A DNA stretch of 64,000 nt. Source: Candidatus Nezhaarchaeota archaeon. GTDB lineage: Archaea; Thermoproteota; Methanomethylicia; Nezhaarchaeales; WYZ-LMO8. The stretch is taken from assembly GCA_025059375.1 (NCBI GenBank), contig JANXDO010000001.1, positions 474,097-538,096 of the forward strand. The letters are read 5' to 3'. Both the position numbers and the translations under genes were made by a program. The notes beneath the pieces are model-generated. The model did no database searches. It had not been told where the DNA came from and saw only the letters and a list, made by a program, of their open reading frames with translations. Shown piece by piece: positions 7,852 through 53,447 of this stretch (positions are counted from its first letter, which is position 1; each line of letters begins with the position of its first letter).

Positions 7852-8895
7852 CTAGATTAGGTTAAGTGATATCATGTAGTCTCCACTTGAACCAACAACT
7901 ATGCGCTGATATCGCTTACCCTTAAAGTTGACCTCCTCAAGCCTACCCACCACCTCTACAACTTCACCTCTTGAAGCTTGCTCAGCAAATCTACCGCGAA
8001 AAGAGGTTACTTCAGTGAGCCTTGTTGAATCAGCTTCCCCCTCTAGGACCTCCAAGCACTTGACAATGTAGGTGCAAGGCGTAAATATCGACTCTGAGTC
8101 GTCGATGACGAGTGCCCTAATCTTCGACCTTCCAATACCCCTAGTCAACCTCTCACCATAACTCTCACCAACCTCATTTAAGTCCTTCACGAAGCGGATG
8201 AAGTACATGCTGCCCCTATAAATGCCCTGGATAACCTTCCTACCCTCTTGCTTCACGAAGAGGTTGAAATTCATGGGGGTCTCTCTTGACCTTGATTCAA
8301 AAAGCTCCTCCATTTCATCCTTGTTGAGCCTTCTAAAGCTCCCCCCTTCATCTAGCAGCTTAATCATGGCTCTCCTAGCTTTAAAGCTGTTATCCACTCC
8401 ATAAACTATGAAGTCTATGTCCGACTTAGCTGTGTGTAGTGATAGTAGCAGCGACCCCGATACGCCCATGAACTCAACGTCGACACCAGAGGCTGAACTA
8501 AGCTCCTCAGCGAAGCTCTTAGCCTTCTGAGCTAGCTTGTCGCTAGTGCTGCTCCTCATTATGCTTTGAAGGCCCAAGCTGGGGTCATAAGCCATGGTCA
8601 CCCTGTCGAGTGGCACAGACTGGACCTCAACGCCCCAAACCTCATCGTAGTGAGCGTAGTGGGGGTACTTAGACTTGATTATTGAGATCTGATCATCAAA
8701 CCCATAGATCCTCCTAAACTTAACACCACCCCTAACCCTGTCACCGCTTGGATCAACTACATACCTCAAGTAGGCAACAACTCTATCTGGCGGGTGAACT
8801 AAGCCCTTCACGGTGAATATTAGTAGGTCTGAGGTCTCAACGTAGCCACCCTCAAGACTCCACCTTCCTCTTAATGTCTTCAACGAGCTCTTCAA
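7852..8895 (-). CDS. Nucleotidyltransferase-fold protein
   Basis: 347 residues. Around residues 145-163 the motif G-S-L-L-L-S-L-H-T-A-K-S-D-I-D-F matches the Pol-beta nucleotidyltransferase signature (G-S, then D-x-D with metal-binding aspartates). An N-terminal domain with H-P-P-D-R-V-V-A-Y-L precedes it, as in archaeal proteins annotated as DNA polymerase beta-domain proteins. Substrate unknown. It starts at TTG inside the end of the nuclease gene (44-base overlap), so it is translationally coupled to the operon of nuclease and geranylgeranyl reductase. A later start is possible. Confidence 0.7.
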   Translation of the reverse strand: MKSSLKTLRGRWSLEGGYVETSDLLIFTVKGLVHPPDRVVAYLRYVVDPSGDRVRGGVKFRRIYGFDDQISIIKSKYPHYAHYDEVWGVEVQSVPLDRVTMAYDPSLGLQSIMRSSTSDKLAQKAKSFAEELSSASGVDVEFMGVSGSLLLSLHTAKSDIDFIVYGVDNSFKARRAMIKLLDEGGSFRRLNKDEMEELFESRSRETPMNFNLFVKQEGRKVIQGIYRGSMYFIRFVKDLNEVGESYGERLTRGIGRSKIRALVIDDSESIFTPCTYIVKCLEVLEGEADSTRLTEVTSFRGRFAEQASRGEVVEVVGRLEEVNFKGKRYQRIVVGSSGDYMISLNLI

Positions 8896-9565
8896 CCCTC
8901 TTCAACCTCCTCTCCAACCTCTTTAACCTCTCCTCAATTGAGGTGTAGGCTAGTATCCTCTTAACGTGCATCTTGAGCCTATCGAAGCCCCACGAACCCT
9001 TCAAGACTCCTCTAACTCTCAGATTACTGATGTGGCTCCAAACTTCTTGACTACTAATCTTAAGTTTAGCTGAAACCTCCTCTATGCTATTAGATGAGGC
9101 TATGGCCCTTAGAAGCTTGAGATCGCTCCTCTTCAACCTCTCACCATACGGCACTGGTGGTCCAAGCTCATCCATTAGGTCCTGCAGTGCCGCCTTGACG
9201 GCGAGCTCAAGGTCCTCAACCTCAAATAAAATGTAGTACTCCGGGATAGTTAGGACCTTTACGTTTAGCTCCTTGGCTACGGTTTCGGCCGCCGCGTCAG
9301 CAAGGCCCTTGCAGATCACGAGGGGCTTCATGCCCAAGAGCAGTGCTCCCGTGTAGGCTTGCCTTATATCGCTCACGCTGGCCTTGCCCGCCTTCACCTC
9401 GACCGCGTAGACCTCTCCTTCAGGGCTAACAGCCACCATGTCCACCTCTCCAACCTCAACACCATTCTTCACTATCTTCCTCCTGGTGTCGAGGACCCTG
9501 AACCCTACCCTCTCCAGGATCCCTAGAGCAACCCTCTCGCTGCTCAATCCCCGCCTCAAGCCCAT
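8852..9565 (-). CDS. RecB/Holliday-resolvase-like nuclease with winged helix and coiled coil
   Basis: About 237 residues. The start is taken at ATG 9565; an in-frame TTG at 9568 is adjacent. Residues 10-110 hold the PD-(D/E)XK pattern: G-E-V-D-M-V-A-V (Asp), then Y-A-V-E-V-K-A-G (E-x-K), then a conserved Q-A-Y. A winged-helix region (about 145-200, L-K-I-S-S-Q-E-V-W-S-H-I) follows. The C-terminus is strongly charged and coiled-coil-like (ERLKRLERRLKRVEELVED). It probably cuts or binds DNA. It lies between geranylgeranyl reductase and the nucleotidyltransferase gene, with overlaps of a few bases, so the three form an operon of unclear logic. Confidence 0.75.
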   Translation of the reverse strand: MGLRRGLSSERVALGILERVGFRVLDTRRKIVKNGVEVGEVDMVAVSPEGEVYAVEVKAGKASVSDIRQAYTGALLLGMKPLVICKGLADAAAETVAKELNVKVLTIPEYYILFEVEDLELAVKAALQDLMDELGPPVPYGERLKRSDLKLLRAIASSNSIEEVSAKLKISSQEVWSHISNLRVRGVLKGSWGFDRLKMHVKRILAYTSIEERLKRLERRLKRVEELVEDIKRKVES

Positions 9566-9569
9566 CAAC

Positions 9570-10902: not shown

Positions 10903-11122
10903 GTTGTAGTTTCTTTTTGTTGCTTCGAGCTCCCCGATCCCGTTGAACGTGACTTGGAGGGCTGTTGTAGTTTCTTTTTGTTGCTTCCGGGCCCCAGAGC
11001 GGGGCCGGGGGGGTGCGCGGTTGTAGTTTCTTTTTGTTGCTTCAATATAATATAGAATATAGAATAATGCACAATTTCTAAATGAAAAATGTTAATATGT
11101 TGTAGTTTCTTTTTGTTGCTTC
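10903..11122 (-). CRISPR. CRISPR array, 4 repeats and 3 spacers
   Basis: Four identical 24-base repeats lie at 10903-10926, 10964-10987, 11020-11043 and 11099-11122. On the plus strand each begins GTTGTAG and ends TTGTTGCTTC; on the minus strand it begins GAAGCAAC and ends CTACAAC. The spacers are 37, 32 and 55 bases, an unusually wide spread. The one nearest the leader is very A/T-rich, the middle one almost pure G/C. The cas operon and a TATA-bearing leader lie on the 11.1 kb side, so transcription is on the minus strand and 11099-11122 is the leader-proximal repeat. No degenerate further repeat is seen. Confidence 0.97.
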
Positions 11123-11239: not shown

Positions 11240-12238
11240 TCACTTCACTGTGTATGTGAATGGCCTGAAGGGCGTGCCTCTCTCTATGCTCTGCCTTAGT
11301 TCCCAAGCTTTTGCGTATATTTCCCCCTTCACGCTGTGTTTCCAGCTTCTGTGCCTCCTCTTTAATGCCTTGTACAGGAGCCTCGTGACGGTCTCTAGTG
11401 ATTCCTTGGTTAGGTGTTCGTTCTTGTCCACGGATAGCTTTGTCGTCCTGGAGGCGATTATCACGGCGTGTATGGCTACGGGCTTGAACATCTCAGAGAA
11501 GTCGTACGTCAGGGACGTTTTTCCTGCTCTCTCGGAGTGCACTATCCCCACGTAGGGGTCTAGTCCGGAGGCTATCAATGCGTGTGTGCACAGCCCGTAC
11601 ACTATTGCGTAGGTGTAGCTCGTGGCTGAGTTTATTGGGTCCCTACTCTTAGGGTCCCTGCCTGTGAACTCGTACTCGCTTGGCACGAAGGTTGCAAGGA
11701 GCTCCCAGAGCTTTTTGCTCCACTTCCCCTCATGGTTGCGCAGCTCGTCCACATTCTTAATGCCTTTCCCCTCGATCTCTCTAAGCATCTCACATCTCTT
11801 CAACTCTTCTAGGATCCACTTAGTGTCCATCCCTCTCTCCGCCTCCTTGTAGGCTAGGTAGCGGATTAGGTTGATGAACCCTTGGAGCTTACTGTCGATG
11901 AAGGCTCTGCCCACGTTAATCCTCCACTCGACGTTGTCAGCTGCCCTGTAGAGCTTCCTCCTCGCTTCAGCAACTCTAACGCTGAACGGGTTTAAGAGGA
12001 AGCAGTCGCTTCGCCTGCCGTGAATCAGCACGGGCACATCAGCCTCCGATAGCATTAGGAGAGCACCAGACGACAATCGCACCCTCGACCCAACTACAAC
12101 GAGGAGCTCAACGTCTAGTAGAGGCACTGACTGCGTCTCCCAAGTAATGCCTCCCCCTTCGTCCTTCTTTGGCGTAGATATGGCTATCGTGGACCCCCTC
12201 TTGCTCACCTTGGCAGCGCCCTTAACCACTACGATCAT
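11240..12238 (-). CDS. cas1: Cas1 spacer integrase
   Basis: 332 residues from ATG 12238, chosen because the upstream frame overlaps cas4 and the protein then begins M-I-V-V-V-K-G. Catalytic residues of the Cas1 family are visible: Glu in N-H-E-G-K-W, His in G-I-V-H-S-E, and Asp/Glu in Y-D-F-S-E-M-F-K-P. The C-terminal D-P-I-N-S-A-T-S-Y stretch also fits. With Cas2 it inserts new spacers at the leader end of the array. It is the last gene of the cas operon, 117 bases from the first repeat. The length is normal and nothing appears broken, so adaptation should be possible. Confidence 0.96.
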   Translation of the reverse strand: MIVVVKGAAKVSKRGSTIAISTPKKDEGGGITWETQSVPLLDVELLVVVGSRVRLSSGALLMLSEADVPVLIHGRRSDCFLLNPFSVRVAEARRKLYRAADNVEWRINVGRAFIDSKLQGFINLIRYLAYKEAERGMDTKWILEELKRCEMLREIEGKGIKNVDELRNHEGKWSKKLWELLATFVPSEYEFTGRDPKSRDPINSATSYTYAIVYGLCTHALIASGLDPYVGIVHSERAGKTSLTYDFSEMFKPVAIHAVIIASRTTKLSVDKNEHLTKESLETVTRLLYKALKRRHRSWKHSVKGEIYAKAWELRQSIERGTPFRPFTYTVK

Positions 12239-12242
12239 AGCA

Positions 12243-12881
12243 TCACGCGGCGAACTCGCATTTCCTGGCATAGACGCAGTGTGAGCAAGGCGGTTTTCCA
12301 GCGGGCCTGGGAGCCTTGTTTAGGCTGGTTAGTGTTGCAACCTCCTCCATGAGCTTGACGAGCTTACGGCTCACGCCGCCCTTGAAGGTAAAGAGCAGTG
12401 CTGGGTAACTTGAGGATGGGGATAGCGAGACGTAGAATCCAGCTGAGGGAACGCCATAGTGTAGGTGTGTAGACATCATGTAGACCAGGATTCTAGGGAT
12501 CACGTGCTTCTCCTTGAGGACGATTGTGGTATCAGTGTCAGCAACCTCAAGAACTAATACTCGCAGCAGCTTGCCGTGAAGCGAGGTAATGATTACTGCG
12601 TCCGGTCTGCATATGAAGACTACATCCAGTCCTCTACCCTTGAAAGTTAAGCAGTACTCCTTGCCCGCCCCATCATACTCCTTTACTACTCTATTGAGTG
12701 AGCTCTCAGCTGCTAACTCTCTTAGTGTAGGTATGAGGAGCTCTTCAACGAAGATCCTACCACGCTCCCTGCTATCCTCCATATCCAGTATCCTCCTTGG
12801 CTTGTAGACCTCAGGGCGCGCTGCATAGTAAGCTCTAGATCTACACACCATGTAGTCGTCAAGTATCCGTGCCGATAACAA
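12243..12881 (-). CDS. cas4: Cas4-like adaptation protein with altered nuclease motif
   Basis: About 212 residues from TTG 12881, which overlaps cas2 and keeps the conserved L-S-A-R-I-L-D-D-Y-M-V-C. ATG 12851 would remove part of that motif. Cluster cysteines are present: one near the N-terminus (V-C-R-S-R) and three at the end (C-S-H-C-V-Y-A-R-K-C), as in [4Fe-4S] Cas4. The RecB-type site reads R-P-D-A-V, then L-E-V-A-D. The lysine of the usual E-x-K is alanine, and the usual Q of the Q-x3-Y motif appears to be Arg in P-R-I-L-V-Y. It may select prespacers without normal exonuclease activity. Confidence 0.85.
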   Translation of the reverse strand: MLSARILDDYMVCRSRAYYAARPEVYKPRRILDMEDSRERGRIFVEELLIPTLRELAAESSLNRVVKEYDGAGKEYCLTFKGRGLDVVFICRPDAVIITSLHGKLLRVLVLEVADTDTTIVLKEKHVIPRILVYMMSTHLHYGVPSAGFYVSLSPSSSYPALLFTFKGGVSRKLVKLMEEVATLTSLNKAPRPAGKPPCSHCVYARKCEFAA

Positions 12882-13155
12882 GCACGTCTGCCGCCCTCGA
12901 CCTATACCAAATCTTGCCTCTGGTAGCAGCAAGACACCTGTAGAAGTCAGAATCTTGAACAGGGATTGCGACGATAGAATCCCCCTCGCCAACCACTCTG
13001 CTAAGCTCCTCGCATAGGATCGTAGCTCTAGACCACGTAAGCCTTCCAGCGTATACTGACTTGGATATAGGGCATAGACCGTAGCGCCAAAGTACGCGCC
13101 TAACTCTCTCGCGTACATCGTCTCTCTGGACGTCGTAGGCGACGACAACATACAT
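12859..13155 (-). CDS. cas2: Cas2 adaptation protein
   Basis: 98 residues. The N-terminus M-Y-V-V-V-A-Y-D-V with the conserved aspartate at residue 8, and the ferredoxin-like pattern ending D-V-L-V-I-G-T, match Cas2. It forms the structural core of the Cas1-Cas2 integrase. It sits between cas3 (10-base gap upstream) and cas4 (23-base overlap), in the order cas2-cas4-cas1. Length is typical. Confidence 0.95.
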   Translation of the reverse strand: MYVVVAYDVQRDDVRERVRRVLWRYGLCPISKSVYAGRLTWSRATILCEELSRVVGEGDSIVAIPVQDSDFYRCLAATRGKIWYRSRAADVLVIGTDT

Positions 13156-20584: not shown

Positions 20585-20600
20585 GCGTCTTTATAAGCTT
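20585..20600. promoter_or_regulatory. Candidate shared promoter between cas10d operon and csa3-cas6
   Basis: The cas10d start (20560) and the proposed csa3 ATG (20642) are 81 bases apart. CTTTATAAG at 20589-20597 contains the self-complementary TTATAA and is a TATA box on both strands. It is about 29 bases before the cas10d ATG, giving a leaderless transcript, and about 45 before the csa3 ATG. A second A/T-rich block (ATATATAC, 20573-20580) lies nearer cas10d. Binding of Csa3 here would control both arms; this is inference. Confidence 0.5.
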
Positions 20601-20641
20601 TGTTAGACTCTGAAAGTTACAAGATAGAGGGGCATTGTAAA

Positions 20642-21313
20642 ATGACCAGAAATCTAAAACTGTTCACATTTGGATGGAGCCCCGAATTCGTTCTAAGGCA
20701 CTTGATTGAGGAGGGCGTTTCTCATGGGGACATAGTCCTGCTCATTAGCAATAAACCCGAAGGGGACTACGCGAAAAAGAGGGTGGAAGAGGCTTACAGG
20801 CAAGTGGAGAGCTTCCTCAGAATGGTTGGGATCGTCCCGCTAGAGTATCGAGAAGTAGAGCTAGAGAAGGGGGTCTTGGAAGTCTGCAGGGACCTCGTGA
20901 GGATTGTAAAGGGGTTCGAGCCCTTGGACTCCATCAAGTTCTACTTGGTGGGGGGGATGAGGGTTCTAGTGGTTGCTGCATTGATCGTGGCCAAGCTGCT
21001 TTGCTCAGCAGGTAGGCGAGTTGAGGTGAAGCTATCTCAAGAGGACAGGCCAATCTCTTACAATCTACCGCTAGAGCTCCTACTGCTAGACGTTGAAGAC
21101 GTCACGAGCGCTCAGCTAGAGCTTCTAAGCTACTTGAGAGCTCACGGCAAGGCGGGATCCAAGAGCCTAGCGATAGGGAGGAGCGAGGTAACCGTTAGGA
21201 AGCACTTGGTCAAGCTCAGGGAGATGGGGCTAGTCGAGTACAGCGTGAGTGGCAGGAGGCAGGTCTATAGGCTTTCGCCCCTAGGAGAGATCTTGTTAGA
21301 GGTGGTCAAGTGA
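20642..21313 (+). CDS. csa3: Csa3-type CARF-HTH regulator of the CRISPR locus
   Basis: 223 residues from ATG 20642; an upstream TTG at 20600 is too close to the TATA box. The N-terminal half is a CARF/Rossmann-like domain (K-L-F-T-F-G-W-S, then F-Y-L-V-G-G-M-R-V-L), the ligand-binding part. The C-terminal 70 residues are a winged helix (L-A-I-G-R-S-E-V-T-V-R-K-H-L). In Sulfolobales, Csa3 proteins activate adaptation genes or CRISPR transcription in response to nucleotide signals. It is followed by cas6 after 3 bases. Confidence 0.88.
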   Translation: MTRNLKLFTFGWSPEFVLRHLIEEGVSHGDIVLLISNKPEGDYAKKRVEEAYRQVESFLRMVGIVPLEYREVELEKGVLEVCRDLVRIVKGFEPLDSIKFYLVGGMRVLVVAALIVAKLLCSAGRRVEVKLSQEDRPISYNLPLELLLLDVEDVTSAQLELLSYLRAHGKAGSKSLAIGRSEVTVRKHLVKLREMGLVEYSVSGRRQVYRLSPLGEILLEVVK

Positions 21314-22300: not shown

Positions 22301-22637
22301 CGTAGGCTGGAAGCAGAGGGAGGAAACCACAAGCCTCCACTTGTAGGGGGATTCACCTGGACTAGTGCTAGTCCTATGTCCAGACCTCACCGACACACCT
22401 ACTGTCTTTGAAGTAGCGTTGATGAGGAGAGGGCCACGCGTAACTTGATCTACGAGCGAGAAGGACGTTCTTAGAGCTTTCAGTTGTTCATCGAAGAACG
22501 TGTTGGAGACCTAACAGTAGGATGTGTCTCGTGTTTAAAAGAGGGCTAAGCAAAGTGGATGGGGGGTTCTTGGTCTCTAAGTCCGTGTGCTGAGGAGGCA
22601 TTTAAAAGTGTTGAAGAGAGCAACCTGTTATGTGACG
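22301..22637. other. Gene-free stretch with stem-loops downstream of cas6
   Basis: No coding frame is convincing here. Structure is present: GGACTAG-TG-CTAGTCC (22359-22374); CCACAAG paired imperfectly with CTTGTAGG across a 6-base loop (about 22328-22348); and ACGTTCTT (22465-22472) with AAGAACGT (22494-22501). The first two could end the csa3-cas6 transcript or be a decayed transposon end, but no transposase remnant was recognised. A TATA-like TTTAAAAG near 22600 precedes the broken gene at 22638. Confidence 0.4.
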
Positions 22638-23053
22638 ATGAAGACGGGAGAACTGAAAGTAGTTCATAGGGGGTATGAAGAGGTCAAGAGCTCCTTACAC
22701 AAGAAGATCCTAGTCATCTCCTTCCTAGCCTTGGCTATCGGGGCAGTAGCTTGGGCCGTCATAAGCGGCATCCCCTACTACTATGAGCGGCCACGCGAAA
22801 GACCCGCGAACCACTCCAACTACGAAAGAAGCTGGAGCGAACAATCGACCCATGCCATCAGCTCCTCCAGCATCTTGCCGCCATCTTTCCAGACCCTGTT
22901 CTACCAGCTTTGAGCACGCCATCAGCTCCTCCAGCAGCCCCCACCTTCGAGGAAGTATTCCTGGATTTCGCTGAAGTTAATGGCATTTCTAAGGAGGCCG
23001 CTAAGAACTTTTTGAACAATTTTAGAGATTACGTAGACTACTATTTTAATTAA
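22638..23053 (+). pseudogene. Broken gene for a single-pass membrane protein
   Basis: Three reading-frame pieces lie in succession. Piece 1 (ATG 22638, to about 22800) encodes a basic N-terminus and one transmembrane helix (K-K-I-L-V-I-S-F-L-A-L-A-I-G, then G-I-P-Y-Y-Y-E). Piece 2, in the next frame (about 22795-22870), is a Thr/Pro/Ala linker (T-T-P-T-T-K-E-A, P-S-A-P-P-A). Piece 3 (about 22930-23053) ends in an acidic helical domain (F-E-E-V-F-L-D-F, then N-F-R-D-Y-V-D-Y-Y-F-N, stop). Pieces 2 and 3 rejoin in one frame if the 64-base unit at 22854-22917 is removed. Pieces 1 and 2 need one further frameshift. Original function unknown. Confidence 0.5.
22854..22936. repeat. 19-base direct repeat flanking a 43-base chromosomal gene fragment
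   Basis: GCCATCAGCTCCTCCAGCA occurs at 22854-22872 and again at 22918-22936; allowing one mismatch, the duplication is 22 bases. Between the copies, bases 22872-22914 match 40230-40272 at 42 of 43 positions. The only difference is C at 22894 against T at 40252. The source lies inside the acyl-CoA synthetase alpha gene (its L-K-A-G-R-T segment). The insert plus one repeat is 64 bases and shifts the host reading frame by one. The match was read directly; the mechanism is open. Confidence 0.85.
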
Positions 23054-39567: not shown

Positions 39568-40998
39568 TCATCTTGAGGCTGACTTATTAGTGGCGTATCT
39601 TGACAGTTTTTTCTTCTCTATCTCAGCTTGAGAGGCTAGTGTGATGATAGCTTTAGCAGCTCTTTCAGGCGTGTAATAGTTTGGTACGAGATTTTTGCTG
39701 AAAAGCCTTAAGACCTCCTCAAACTCTATTGCCTTGAAGCCAAACGGCATAGCCCATGCAACGATTATAGGTTTCTGATAGCGCTCAATCGCATCAACTA
39801 TTAGCTCTGCCACTTCAATTTGATATAAAACGAGAGGTGGTGTCACCATGATTACATCTATGTTAGGGTCGGAGCACACTGCCTCTAAAACCCTCTCGCT
39901 TAAACTCACATCTTCAAAGGCTGAGGCAGTCAAATCCACTGGGTTTGAAGCCGAGGCGAAGGGAGGGAGAATCTTTCTAAGCTTATCTATGTTGTCGTTG
40001 GTTAGTTTGGGGACCAATAATCCGAGCTCTTCACAAGCATCTGCTGCTACAACTGCGAAACCGCCAGAAACCGATATTATGCCAACTCTATTGCCTTTTG
40101 GTCTTAGTGGGCAAGCCAGGGCCATTGACAGGTCATAGAGCTCCTCAAATGTTTTAGCTTGAATTATTCCAGCTTGCTTACAGGCAGCATTCCAGACATC
40201 TATGGAGCCAGCTAAAGCAGCTGTGTGAGATCTTGCCGCCATCTTTCCAGATCCTGTTCTACCAGCTTTGAGAGCTACTAGAGGCTTAATAGTTGAGCTA
40301 CAGAGCTCCAAGAACCTCCTACCATCCCTAACAGCCTCAATATACATAGCTACCACGCTAGTCTCCGGGTCCTCAATAAAGTACTCGAGACAATCGTTCA
40401 AGGTCGTTACGGCCTCATTACCAGTACTGATTGCCTTGCTCACATGAAAGCCCCTCGCGACAGATAAGGCTAAGAAGCTTTCAAGAAGCCCTCCACTATG
40501 AGATATGAAAGCTATTTTACCTGGTTCTTTGGGTACCGGTATACCGATTGCAGTGTTTAAGCCTATTGAGGGGTTCACTACACCGAGACAGTTTGGCCCA
40601 ACAATGATCATCCCTGTCTCCTCAGCTATTCTGCGCATCTCAACTTCCATTCTCCTCCCTTCATCACCCCTAGACTCAGAGAAGCCGCCTGCAAATATCA
40701 CTGCTACCTTCACACCCTTTGCTCCACACTCCTTCAGAACATTGATGGTTGAGTATGCACTCACTGATATTAAGGCGAAATCCACTTCATCAGGGATGTC
40801 TGATATTCTAGCGTAACACTTCACTCCAAGTAGCTCCCTACCAGCAAGCCTAGGATTAACTGGGTAAACGTTGCCTTCATAGCCACCCCCCACGAGATTC
40901 ATTACGAATAGGTATCCGGGGCTTATCGGGTTATCCGATGCACCTACTATTGCCACACTGTTTGGATAGAAGAGCGGCTTTAGCTTCTCCATCTTCAT
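39568..40998 (-). CDS. ADP-forming acyl-CoA synthetase, alpha (CoA-binding) subunit
   Basis: 476 residues. Order of domains: CoA-binding Rossmann domain (A-I-V-G-A-S-D-N-P, residues 13-21), succinyl-CoA-ligase-like domains with G-P-N-C-L-G-V-V-N, and the phosphohistidine motif A-A-R-S-H-T-A-A-L-A-G-S (about 257-268). This is the alpha half of archaeal ACD; the beta half is the divergent gene at 41083. It converts acyl-CoA plus ADP and phosphate to acid plus ATP, or the reverse. A close paralogue lies at 52020, and a 43-base piece of this gene is found at 22872. Confidence 0.9.
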   Translation of the reverse strand: MKMEKLKPLFYPNSVAIVGASDNPISPGYLFVMNLVGGGYEGNVYPVNPRLAGRELLGVKCYARISDIPDEVDFALISVSAYSTINVLKECGAKGVKVAVIFAGGFSESRGDEGRRMEVEMRRIAEETGMIIVGPNCLGVVNPSIGLNTAIGIPVPKEPGKIAFISHSGGLLESFLALSVARGFHVSKAISTGNEAVTTLNDCLEYFIEDPETSVVAMYIEAVRDGRRFLELCSSTIKPLVALKAGRTGSGKMAARSHTAALAGSIDVWNAACKQAGIIQAKTFEELYDLSMALACPLRPKGNRVGIISVSGGFAVVAADACEELGLLVPKLTNDNIDKLRKILPPFASASNPVDLTASAFEDVSLSERVLEAVCSDPNIDVIMVTPPLVLYQIEVAELIVDAIERYQKPIIVAWAMPFGFKAIEFEEVLRLFSKNLVPNYYTPERAAKAIITLASQAEIEKKKLSRYATNKSASR

Positions 40999-52019: not shown

Positions 52020-53447
52020 CTACTGAGCGCTGACCTTTGGCCTACCTCTCTTCCTCATCTCTATCTGGGTTTGATCCCATAGGGCGGCTACGGCTCTAGC
52101 AGCCCTCTCTGGCATGTAGTAGTTGGGTATGAGGTTCTTACCCAAGAGCCTAACTGCCCTCCTAAGCTCCTCGACTTCAGGCACTATCGGTATAGTCCAA
52201 GAAACTATCACTGGCTTTCGATATCGCTCCACAGCATCGATCACCATGGCTGCCACGTCGACGAGGTGCCTCATCAAGGGCGGCATCACTATAACCGAAT
52301 CTATGTTGGGGTCGGAGCAAACCACATCCAGGACCCCCTCATATACGCTTACGTCCTCTAGGACTGAGGCCGACATATCGACTGGGTTTGAAGTTGATGC
52401 GAAAGGCGGTAGAATGGATCTCAGCTTCTCAATGCTATCAATTGATAGCCTCGGGACCATCAACCCCAACTCTTCGCAGGCGTCTGCCGCCACGACTGCA
52501 GGCCCGCCTGGAGCAGACACTATCCCAACTCTTTTGCCCTTAGGCCTAAGGGGGCAGGCAAGGGCAACAGCTATATCGTAGAGCTCGTTGAACGTCCTAG
52601 CCTGGATTATGCCGACCTGCTTGCAGACGGAGCTCCAGACCTCCACCGAGCCTGCTAGGGCGGCGGTGTGTGACCTAGCCGCTGCCCTGCCGGAGGAGGT
52701 CCTGCCGGCCTTCAGCGCCACCAAGGACTTTGTGGTTGAGCTACAGAGCTCCAAGAACCTCCTTCCATCCCTAATGGCCTCCACGTACATGGCTATCACG
52801 TTAACTTCGGGGTCTTCAATGAAGTACTCCAAGTAATCGTTAAGCGTCGTCACGGCCTCGTTGCCGGTGCTAATCGCCTTGTTCACGTAGAAGCCCCTCA
52901 CACTTGAGAGCGTGAGGAAGCCGGCCATCAATGAGCCGCTATGGGATATGAAGGCTATATTCCCAGGCTCTCTGGGTATGATAGCCTCCAACAAGGTGCT
53001 TAGACCTATTGAGAGGTTTACCACGCCCAAGCAATTGGGCCCCACGATGACCATTCCGCTCTCTTCAGCTATCTTGCGCACCTCGAGTTCAAGCACCCTC
53101 CCTTCATGACCCCCCGACTCTGCGAAGCCAGAGGCAAAGACTATGGCCGCTTTGACCCCCTTATCGCTGCATCTCCTCAAGACATCAATGACTGATCGCG
53201 CGCCTACAGCTATTAGCGCTAAATCCACTTCACCTGGTATGTCGAGCAAGTCCGAGTAGAACTTTAAGCCCAATACCTCCTTGCCTTCAAGCCTAGGGTT
53301 TACTGGGTATACTGAGCCCTTGTAACCTCCCTCAACTAGGTTCTTCAAGTAGAGGTAGCTGAGCTTGGACGGGTTGTCGGAAGCCCCAACGACCGCTACG
53401 CTGTTCGGGTAGAAGAGCGGCCTAAACCTGCTGGTAACGTTTCCCAC
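52020..53447 (-). CDS. ADP-forming acyl-CoA synthetase alpha subunit (G+C-rich paralogue)
   Basis: 475 residues, the same domain order as the gene at 39568: CoA-binding A-V-V-G-A-S-D-N-P, G-P-N-C-L-G-V-V-N and A-A-R-S-H-T-A-A-L-A-G-S. Protein similarity to 39568 is strong along the entire length, yet the DNA is far richer in G and C. No beta (ATP-grasp) gene adjoins, so it must share the beta subunit at 41083 or another elsewhere. It converges with the MBL gene at 51160, 71 bases apart. Confidence 0.9.
   Translation of the reverse strand: MGNVTSRFRPLFYPNSVAVVGASDNPSKLSYLYLKNLVEGGYKGSVYPVNPRLEGKEVLGLKFYSDLLDIPGEVDLALIAVGARSVIDVLRRCSDKGVKAAIVFASGFAESGGHEGRVLELEVRKIAEESGMVIVGPNCLGVVNLSIGLSTLLEAIIPREPGNIAFISHSGSLMAGFLTLSSVRGFYVNKAISTGNEAVTTLNDYLEYFIEDPEVNVIAMYVEAIRDGRRFLELCSSTTKSLVALKAGRTSSGRAAARSHTAALAGSVEVWSSVCKQVGIIQARTFNELYDIAVALACPLRPKGKRVGIVSAPGGPAVVAADACEELGLMVPRLSIDSIEKLRSILPPFASTSNPVDMSASVLEDVSVYEGVLDVVCSDPNIDSVIVMPPLMRHLVDVAAMVIDAVERYRKPVIVSWTIPIVPEVEELRRAVRLLGKNLIPNYYMPERAARAVAALWDQTQIEMRKRGRPKVSAQ

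Follow-up and report, generated by a model that had tools for sequence, protein, structure and literature searches.

The window, the whole 64,000-nucleotide stretch of DNA analysed here, carries a complete type I-D CRISPR locus encoding Cas10d, Csc2, Csc1/Cas5d, Cas3d, Cas1d, Cas2, a Cas4-like protein, and Cas6, together with Csa3-like regulators. The adaptation genes, all on the minus strand, comprise cas1 (Cas1d; 11240-12271), cas2 (12859-13155), and a cas4-like gene (12243-12860) with a C-terminal CxxC...C cluster. Cas1d retains the catalytic Glu, His, and Asp residues, which align with those of A. fulgidus Cas1 (4n06). The cas4-like gene lies within a 302-aa open reading frame (12243-13151) that overlaps cas2 out of frame, and as the likeness to Cas4 is limited to the 3' two thirds of this frame, the true start of the gene is probably near 12860. 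Judged by their sequences, Cas1d with its aligned residues, Cas2, and the Cas4-like protein are intact, in keeping with the first-pass annotation of this DNA, which had placed intact cas1 and cas2 genes approximately 10 kb from the feature described below.

In the CRISPR array (10903-11122, strand unassigned), the 24-base repeat GTTGTAGTTTCTTTTTGTTGCTTC occurs in four identical copies, separated by spacers of 37, 32, and 55 bases, and this repeat was found in no other array and nowhere else in the genome. The spacers are unusually uneven, with the 55-base spacer composed mostly of A/T and the 32-base spacer mostly of G/C. A search of viral contigs with two of the three spacers returned no exact match, and comparison of the array spacers with a 731-kb sample of the genome returned no self match. 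Two Csa3/CARF-like regulator genes flank the type I-D operon, at 8852-9568 and 20600-21313.

On the plus strand, positions 22587-22913 hold the upstream reading frame of a gene for a small orphan protein, predicted to have a single membrane segment at its N-terminus. This frame enters the insert that is the subject of this work and stops there, with the downstream part of the gene read in another frame (22919-23053, plus strand; PSAPPAAPTFEEVFLDFAEV...YYFN, then a stop). No match to the protein of the upstream frame was found in Pfam, PADLOC, or NCBIfam, and searches of viral contigs and of the 39 other genomes in the class likewise gave no homologue.

Anatomy and source of the inserted unit

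Within the orphan gene, the unit at 22851-22936 has a 42-base insert enclosed by two copies of a 22-base target, the second copy starting 64 bases after the first. The left copy (22851-22872, plus strand; CATGCCATCAGCTCCTCCAGCA) and the right copy (22915-22936, plus strand; CACGCCATCAGCTCCTCCAGCA), recovered by repeat search as family D13, differ by one mismatch. Their exact core spans 19 bases (22854-22872 and 22918-22936), with leftward extension of this core to 22 bases taking in the mismatch (CATGCC... vs CACGCC...), and the lengths given in the first-pass annotation (19 bases exact, or 22 with one mismatch) are thereby borne out. The insert (22873-22914, plus strand; TCTTGCCGCCATCTTTCCAGACCCTGTTCTACCAGCTTTGAG) begins TCTTGCC and ends CTTTGAG, and is directly abutted by the target duplication on both sides, with 0 bases of filler at either junction. 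Microhomology amounts to one base at the left join, an A common to target and source, and to none at the right join. The target copies cannot be extended to 24 bases, because the adjacent insert-side bases match the source.

BLASTN places the source of the insert at 40231-40272 (plus strand), with 41 of the 42 bases identical and a C in the insert for a T in the source. The copy had been described as 43 bases matching 40230-40272; it is real, and is refined here to 42 bases, the longer figure counting the A common to the repeat edge. The source segment lies inside an ADP-forming acyl-CoA synthetase gene of the alpha type (39568-40998, minus strand; 476 aa; PF13607, PF13380, PF19045), the product of which is a CoA-binding / succinyl-CoA ligase-like / ligase-CoA protein by Pfam, and the insert is antisense to the reading frame of this gene. 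Read directly from the sequence, the C/T difference is synonymous in the frame of the source gene (GGA/GGG). A paralogous acyl-CoA synthetase gene at 52020-53447 was considered as the source and ruled out, since it differs at many positions across the segment; the source is therefore the 39568-40998 gene. The whole event contains two base differences, one in the 42-base insert and one in the 22-base duplicate, and a date drawn from two differences over ~64 sites is too uncertain for use.

The 64 bases of the unit put the orphan gene out of frame, and to this extent the earlier claim that the insertion breaks a gene stands. The further expectation that the empty site would have an intact frame fails, as leaving out one unit still does not restore a single frame, with codon preference in the joined sequence switching frame at ~22765-22825, upstream of the insertion and independent of it. 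This second frame change is either a second lesion in the gene or an assembly indel, and it rules out a pseudogene made by the insertion only. A search for the empty site, with one CAYGCCATCAGCTCCTCCAGCA, found no homologous DNA in 60 relatives and none in viral contigs; as no homologue of the gene was found in the class genomes or viral contigs, there is no empty site for comparison. In a genome contig collection, the 21-base right-hand junction gave candidate matches in 28 records, of which 27 are from bacteria and one from a thaumarchaeal MAG, and no empty site was recognised there.

Singularity of the insertion

Whole-genome BLASTN with a 261-base query around the site returned the site and its source only. 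For the genome-wide scans, a sample of 731,554 bases (half of the genome) was read as stretches, and exact direct repeats of 15 bases or longer whose copies start 36-129 bases apart were confined to the CRISPR array and the 22851-22936 pair, with first-order Markov shuffles of the same sample giving a longest repeat of 14 bases. A chance repeat is ruled out by these three analyses.

All-against-all BLASTN of the half-genome yielded few near-identical short copies. On our own reading of the sequences, these include two pairs resembling tRNA genes and a 69-base pair resembling ABC ATPase sequence; a stretch of 40 bases common to two acyl-CoA synthetase paralogues and a 31-base pair, both described below, are also among them. 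The insert and its source form the only isolated near-identical short copy between unrelated genes in the 731 kb, and as no other isolated templated copy of this kind is present, generally sloppy repair is not evident. The insertion is real, and is singular within the half of the genome examined. A scan for further flanked fragments, proposed in the first-pass annotation as a check, produced no second example in these 731 kb. The evidence base is one event in one assembled genome (a 14-contig draft).

As a control, 400 kb of each of two relatives was scanned: G004, where a search for cas1 found none, and G009, which has cas1. Both samples contained only 14-15 base repeats at comparable spacing, and of the interiors of five of these seven repeats, which were compared with the samples, none recurs elsewhere in them. 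No comparable event was seen in the 400 kb of G004, which speaks weakly for Cas1-Cas2; at one event per 731 kb in the present genome, samples of this size cannot tell the hypotheses discussed below apart.

Origin of the insertion

The best single explanation for the unit, which we hold tentatively as close to an even prospect, is off-target integration of a self-derived prespacer by the type I-D Cas1-Cas2. In this account, a 42-bp piece of the host chromosome, probably left over from repair or degradation around 40230, would have been taken up as a prespacer by the type I-D integrase, which would then have inserted it into a non-CRISPR target, attacking the two strands at positions separated by 22 bases. 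Fill-in of both gaps would duplicate the target, with the two base differences, one in the insert and one in the duplicate, gained later. The anatomy, the source, and the intact cas1, cas2, and cas4-like genes are observed, whereas we infer that Cas1-Cas2 was the agent, which way the copying went, and in what order the events took place. The succession of target, insert, and target, the spacer-sized insert, the blunt joins, and the nearby adaptation module together match the full-site product of Cas1-Cas2.

The insert is a single DNA fragment of spacer length with an identifiable source, and its 42 bases fall inside the local spacer range (37, 32, and 55 bases), as the first-pass annotation had stated. 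GTN, the general type I-D PAM, which may not be that of this system, is absent beside the source on either strand (flanks AGA and GCT). The commonest spacer length in type I-D systems is 35 nt, with a variation of 5-6 nt, so that the insert comes near it in size, and integration by Cas1-Cas2 is possible without Cas4, which enriches PAM-flanked spacers (PMC10212523); a 42-base insert without a PAM is therefore tolerable. The Cas1-Cas2 of S. solfataricus (type I-A) integrates at many plasmid sites, weakly favouring C or G at +1 together with C at -2 (PMC5815122), and is alike in joining at non-CRISPR DNA. This preference agrees with the left target border of the present unit (C at +1, C at -2) but not with the right one, where T stands at +1 and G at -2. 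The test is a weak one, as by our own estimate approximately one fifth of random targets fit on one side.

Canonical integration duplicates exactly the repeat. The duplication observed here measures 22 bases, or 19 exact bases with a 3-base CAC, compared with a repeat of 24 bases. Targets without ruler elements may not need a repeat-length duplication in type I-D systems, and this difference is therefore counted against integration by Cas1-Cas2, and not as an exclusion. The target is also unlike the repeat, with a best likeness of 10 matching positions, and 86% of random genome sites match as well. The Cas1-Cas2 reading given in the first-pass annotation therefore keeps its basis in the fragment size, the duplicated target, the lack of filler, and the nearby genes, and loses it in the duplication length and the target sequence. 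The single occurrence of the event and the right border also speak against this reading, as may the missing GTN beside the source. The unit looks like an off-target spacer integration and would work like one, and because the duplication is not of repeat length and the target is not repeat-like, we propose its membership of this class rather than assert it. That the unit is a natural fossil of full-site type I-D Cas1-Cas2 integration of a self-derived prespacer at a repeat-unlike site, with a 22-base instead of a repeat-length duplication, is likewise a tentative statement, standing at somewhat under an even chance.

We propose that the product is a fossil, with no repeat for a working guide RNA, and that the small gene holding it was already in decay or changing fast. 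A repeat of the existing family, as the local Cas6 would need in a new mini-array, is absent at the duplicated sequence, and since this sequence is unrelated to the repeat, a functional CRISPR array at 22851-22936 is ruled out.

Break repair with capture of a fragment is a serious rival, possible if somewhat doubtful. Nicks ~20 bases apart on opposite strands would leave a staggered break, and filling in of both ends with joining of a 42-base fragment would give the same product of target, insert, and target. No Cas protein would be needed, and 19-22 bases would be duplicated. Three bases (CAC) may have been added without a template: were the duplication limited to the 19 exact bases, CAC would be filler at the right junction. 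A duplication other than 24 bases, the lack of a PAM, and a repeat-unlike target would all be natural outcomes of such repair. The archaeal primase PriSL is capable of terminal transfer and takes part in end joining, and the microhomology-mediated end joining of Saccharolobus islandicus is similarly able to anneal short matches and add bases to ends (PMC12019639). However, PriSL end joining uses microhomology of 2-4 GC pairs, where the joins described here have 1 and 0 bases, and it mostly leaves indels of 1-2 bp at microhomology (PMC12019639), unlike the 42-base copy and 22-base duplication of the present unit. Furthermore, the 731 kb yielded no other fragment captured between unrelated genes.

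Replication template switching, in which the polymerase would leave the target, copy 42 bases 17 kb away, and return 22 bases upstream of its point of exit, is unlikely. A single event would account for both the copy and the duplication, and source and target lie on one contig at this distance; however, two switches with just 1 and 0 bases in common would be needed, and template switches usually use short homologies. An assembly or library artefact, for which the 14-contig state of the draft might speak, is very improbable, because a chimera or misjoin does not make a 22-base target duplication, and the differences between the copies (1 in 42 and 1 in 22) suggest that a real event took place and that the copies diverged afterwards. 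The least probable explanation is an antisense copy kept for regulation in trans, with the transcript of the small gene pairing with the acyl-CoA synthetase mRNA: the insert and small gene lie on the plus strand and the synthetase gene on the minus strand, so that a transcript would be complementary over 42 bases with one mismatch, but there is no conservation and no structured RNA match in the window, and an antisense orientation would arise by chance in 50% of cases.

Comparable events and other short duplications

Off-target spacer integration is already known, mainly from overexpression and test-tube work. The unit differs from the E. coli 'neo-CRISPR' in being a natural sequence of a type I-D archaeon, in having a target unlike the repeat, and in having a duplication of 22 and not 24 bases. 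Nivala and colleagues are said to have also proposed, in 2018, natural cases in Yersinia pestis and Sulfolobus islandicus. In passages of PMC11788318 and PMC9456107 that summarise the E. coli work (Nivala, Shipman and Church 2018), overexpressed Cas1-Cas2 integrates in the chromosome, likewise leaving a spacer-sized fragment outside an array with its target duplicated, at sites described as resembling the native locus or IHF sites. Cas1 and Cas2 alone also integrate outside arrays in vitro (PMC6895254; PMC10011333), and the type II-A Cas1-Cas2 of S. thermophilus shows low-level integration at non-CRISPR sites, with off-target products judged likely to be half-site, so that no duplication length can be taken from them (PMC6895254).

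If the unit is a product of Cas1-Cas2, it is a natural case of a known type of event and not a new kind of system. It would be an off-target integration of self-derived DNA that occurred naturally in a type I-D system of an archaeon, and would mean that in nature the adaptation machinery of archaea causes mutations in its own chromosome, that the length of the target duplication relaxes without the ruler of the repeat, and that Cas1-Cas2 is a source of insertion mutations and possible new arrays. The signature is simple to scan for, consisting of an isolated 30-55 base copy between duplications of 19-26 bases, in genomes with and without cas1.

Two of the near-identical short copies in the half-genome may have another origin. 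In stretch L035 of the sample, 31 bases in sequence that we read as CBS-domain-like coding are exactly repeated 441 bases apart (11864-11894 and 12305-12335), a pair that, on its sequence, may possibly reflect local gene conversion. The two acyl-CoA synthetase paralogues of the window, which are ~66% identical as proteins, have a 40-base patch of 97.5% identity (40292-40331 and 52735-52774), with lower identity around it. This patch, which is possibly also a result of gene conversion, directly adjoins the source segment of the insert.
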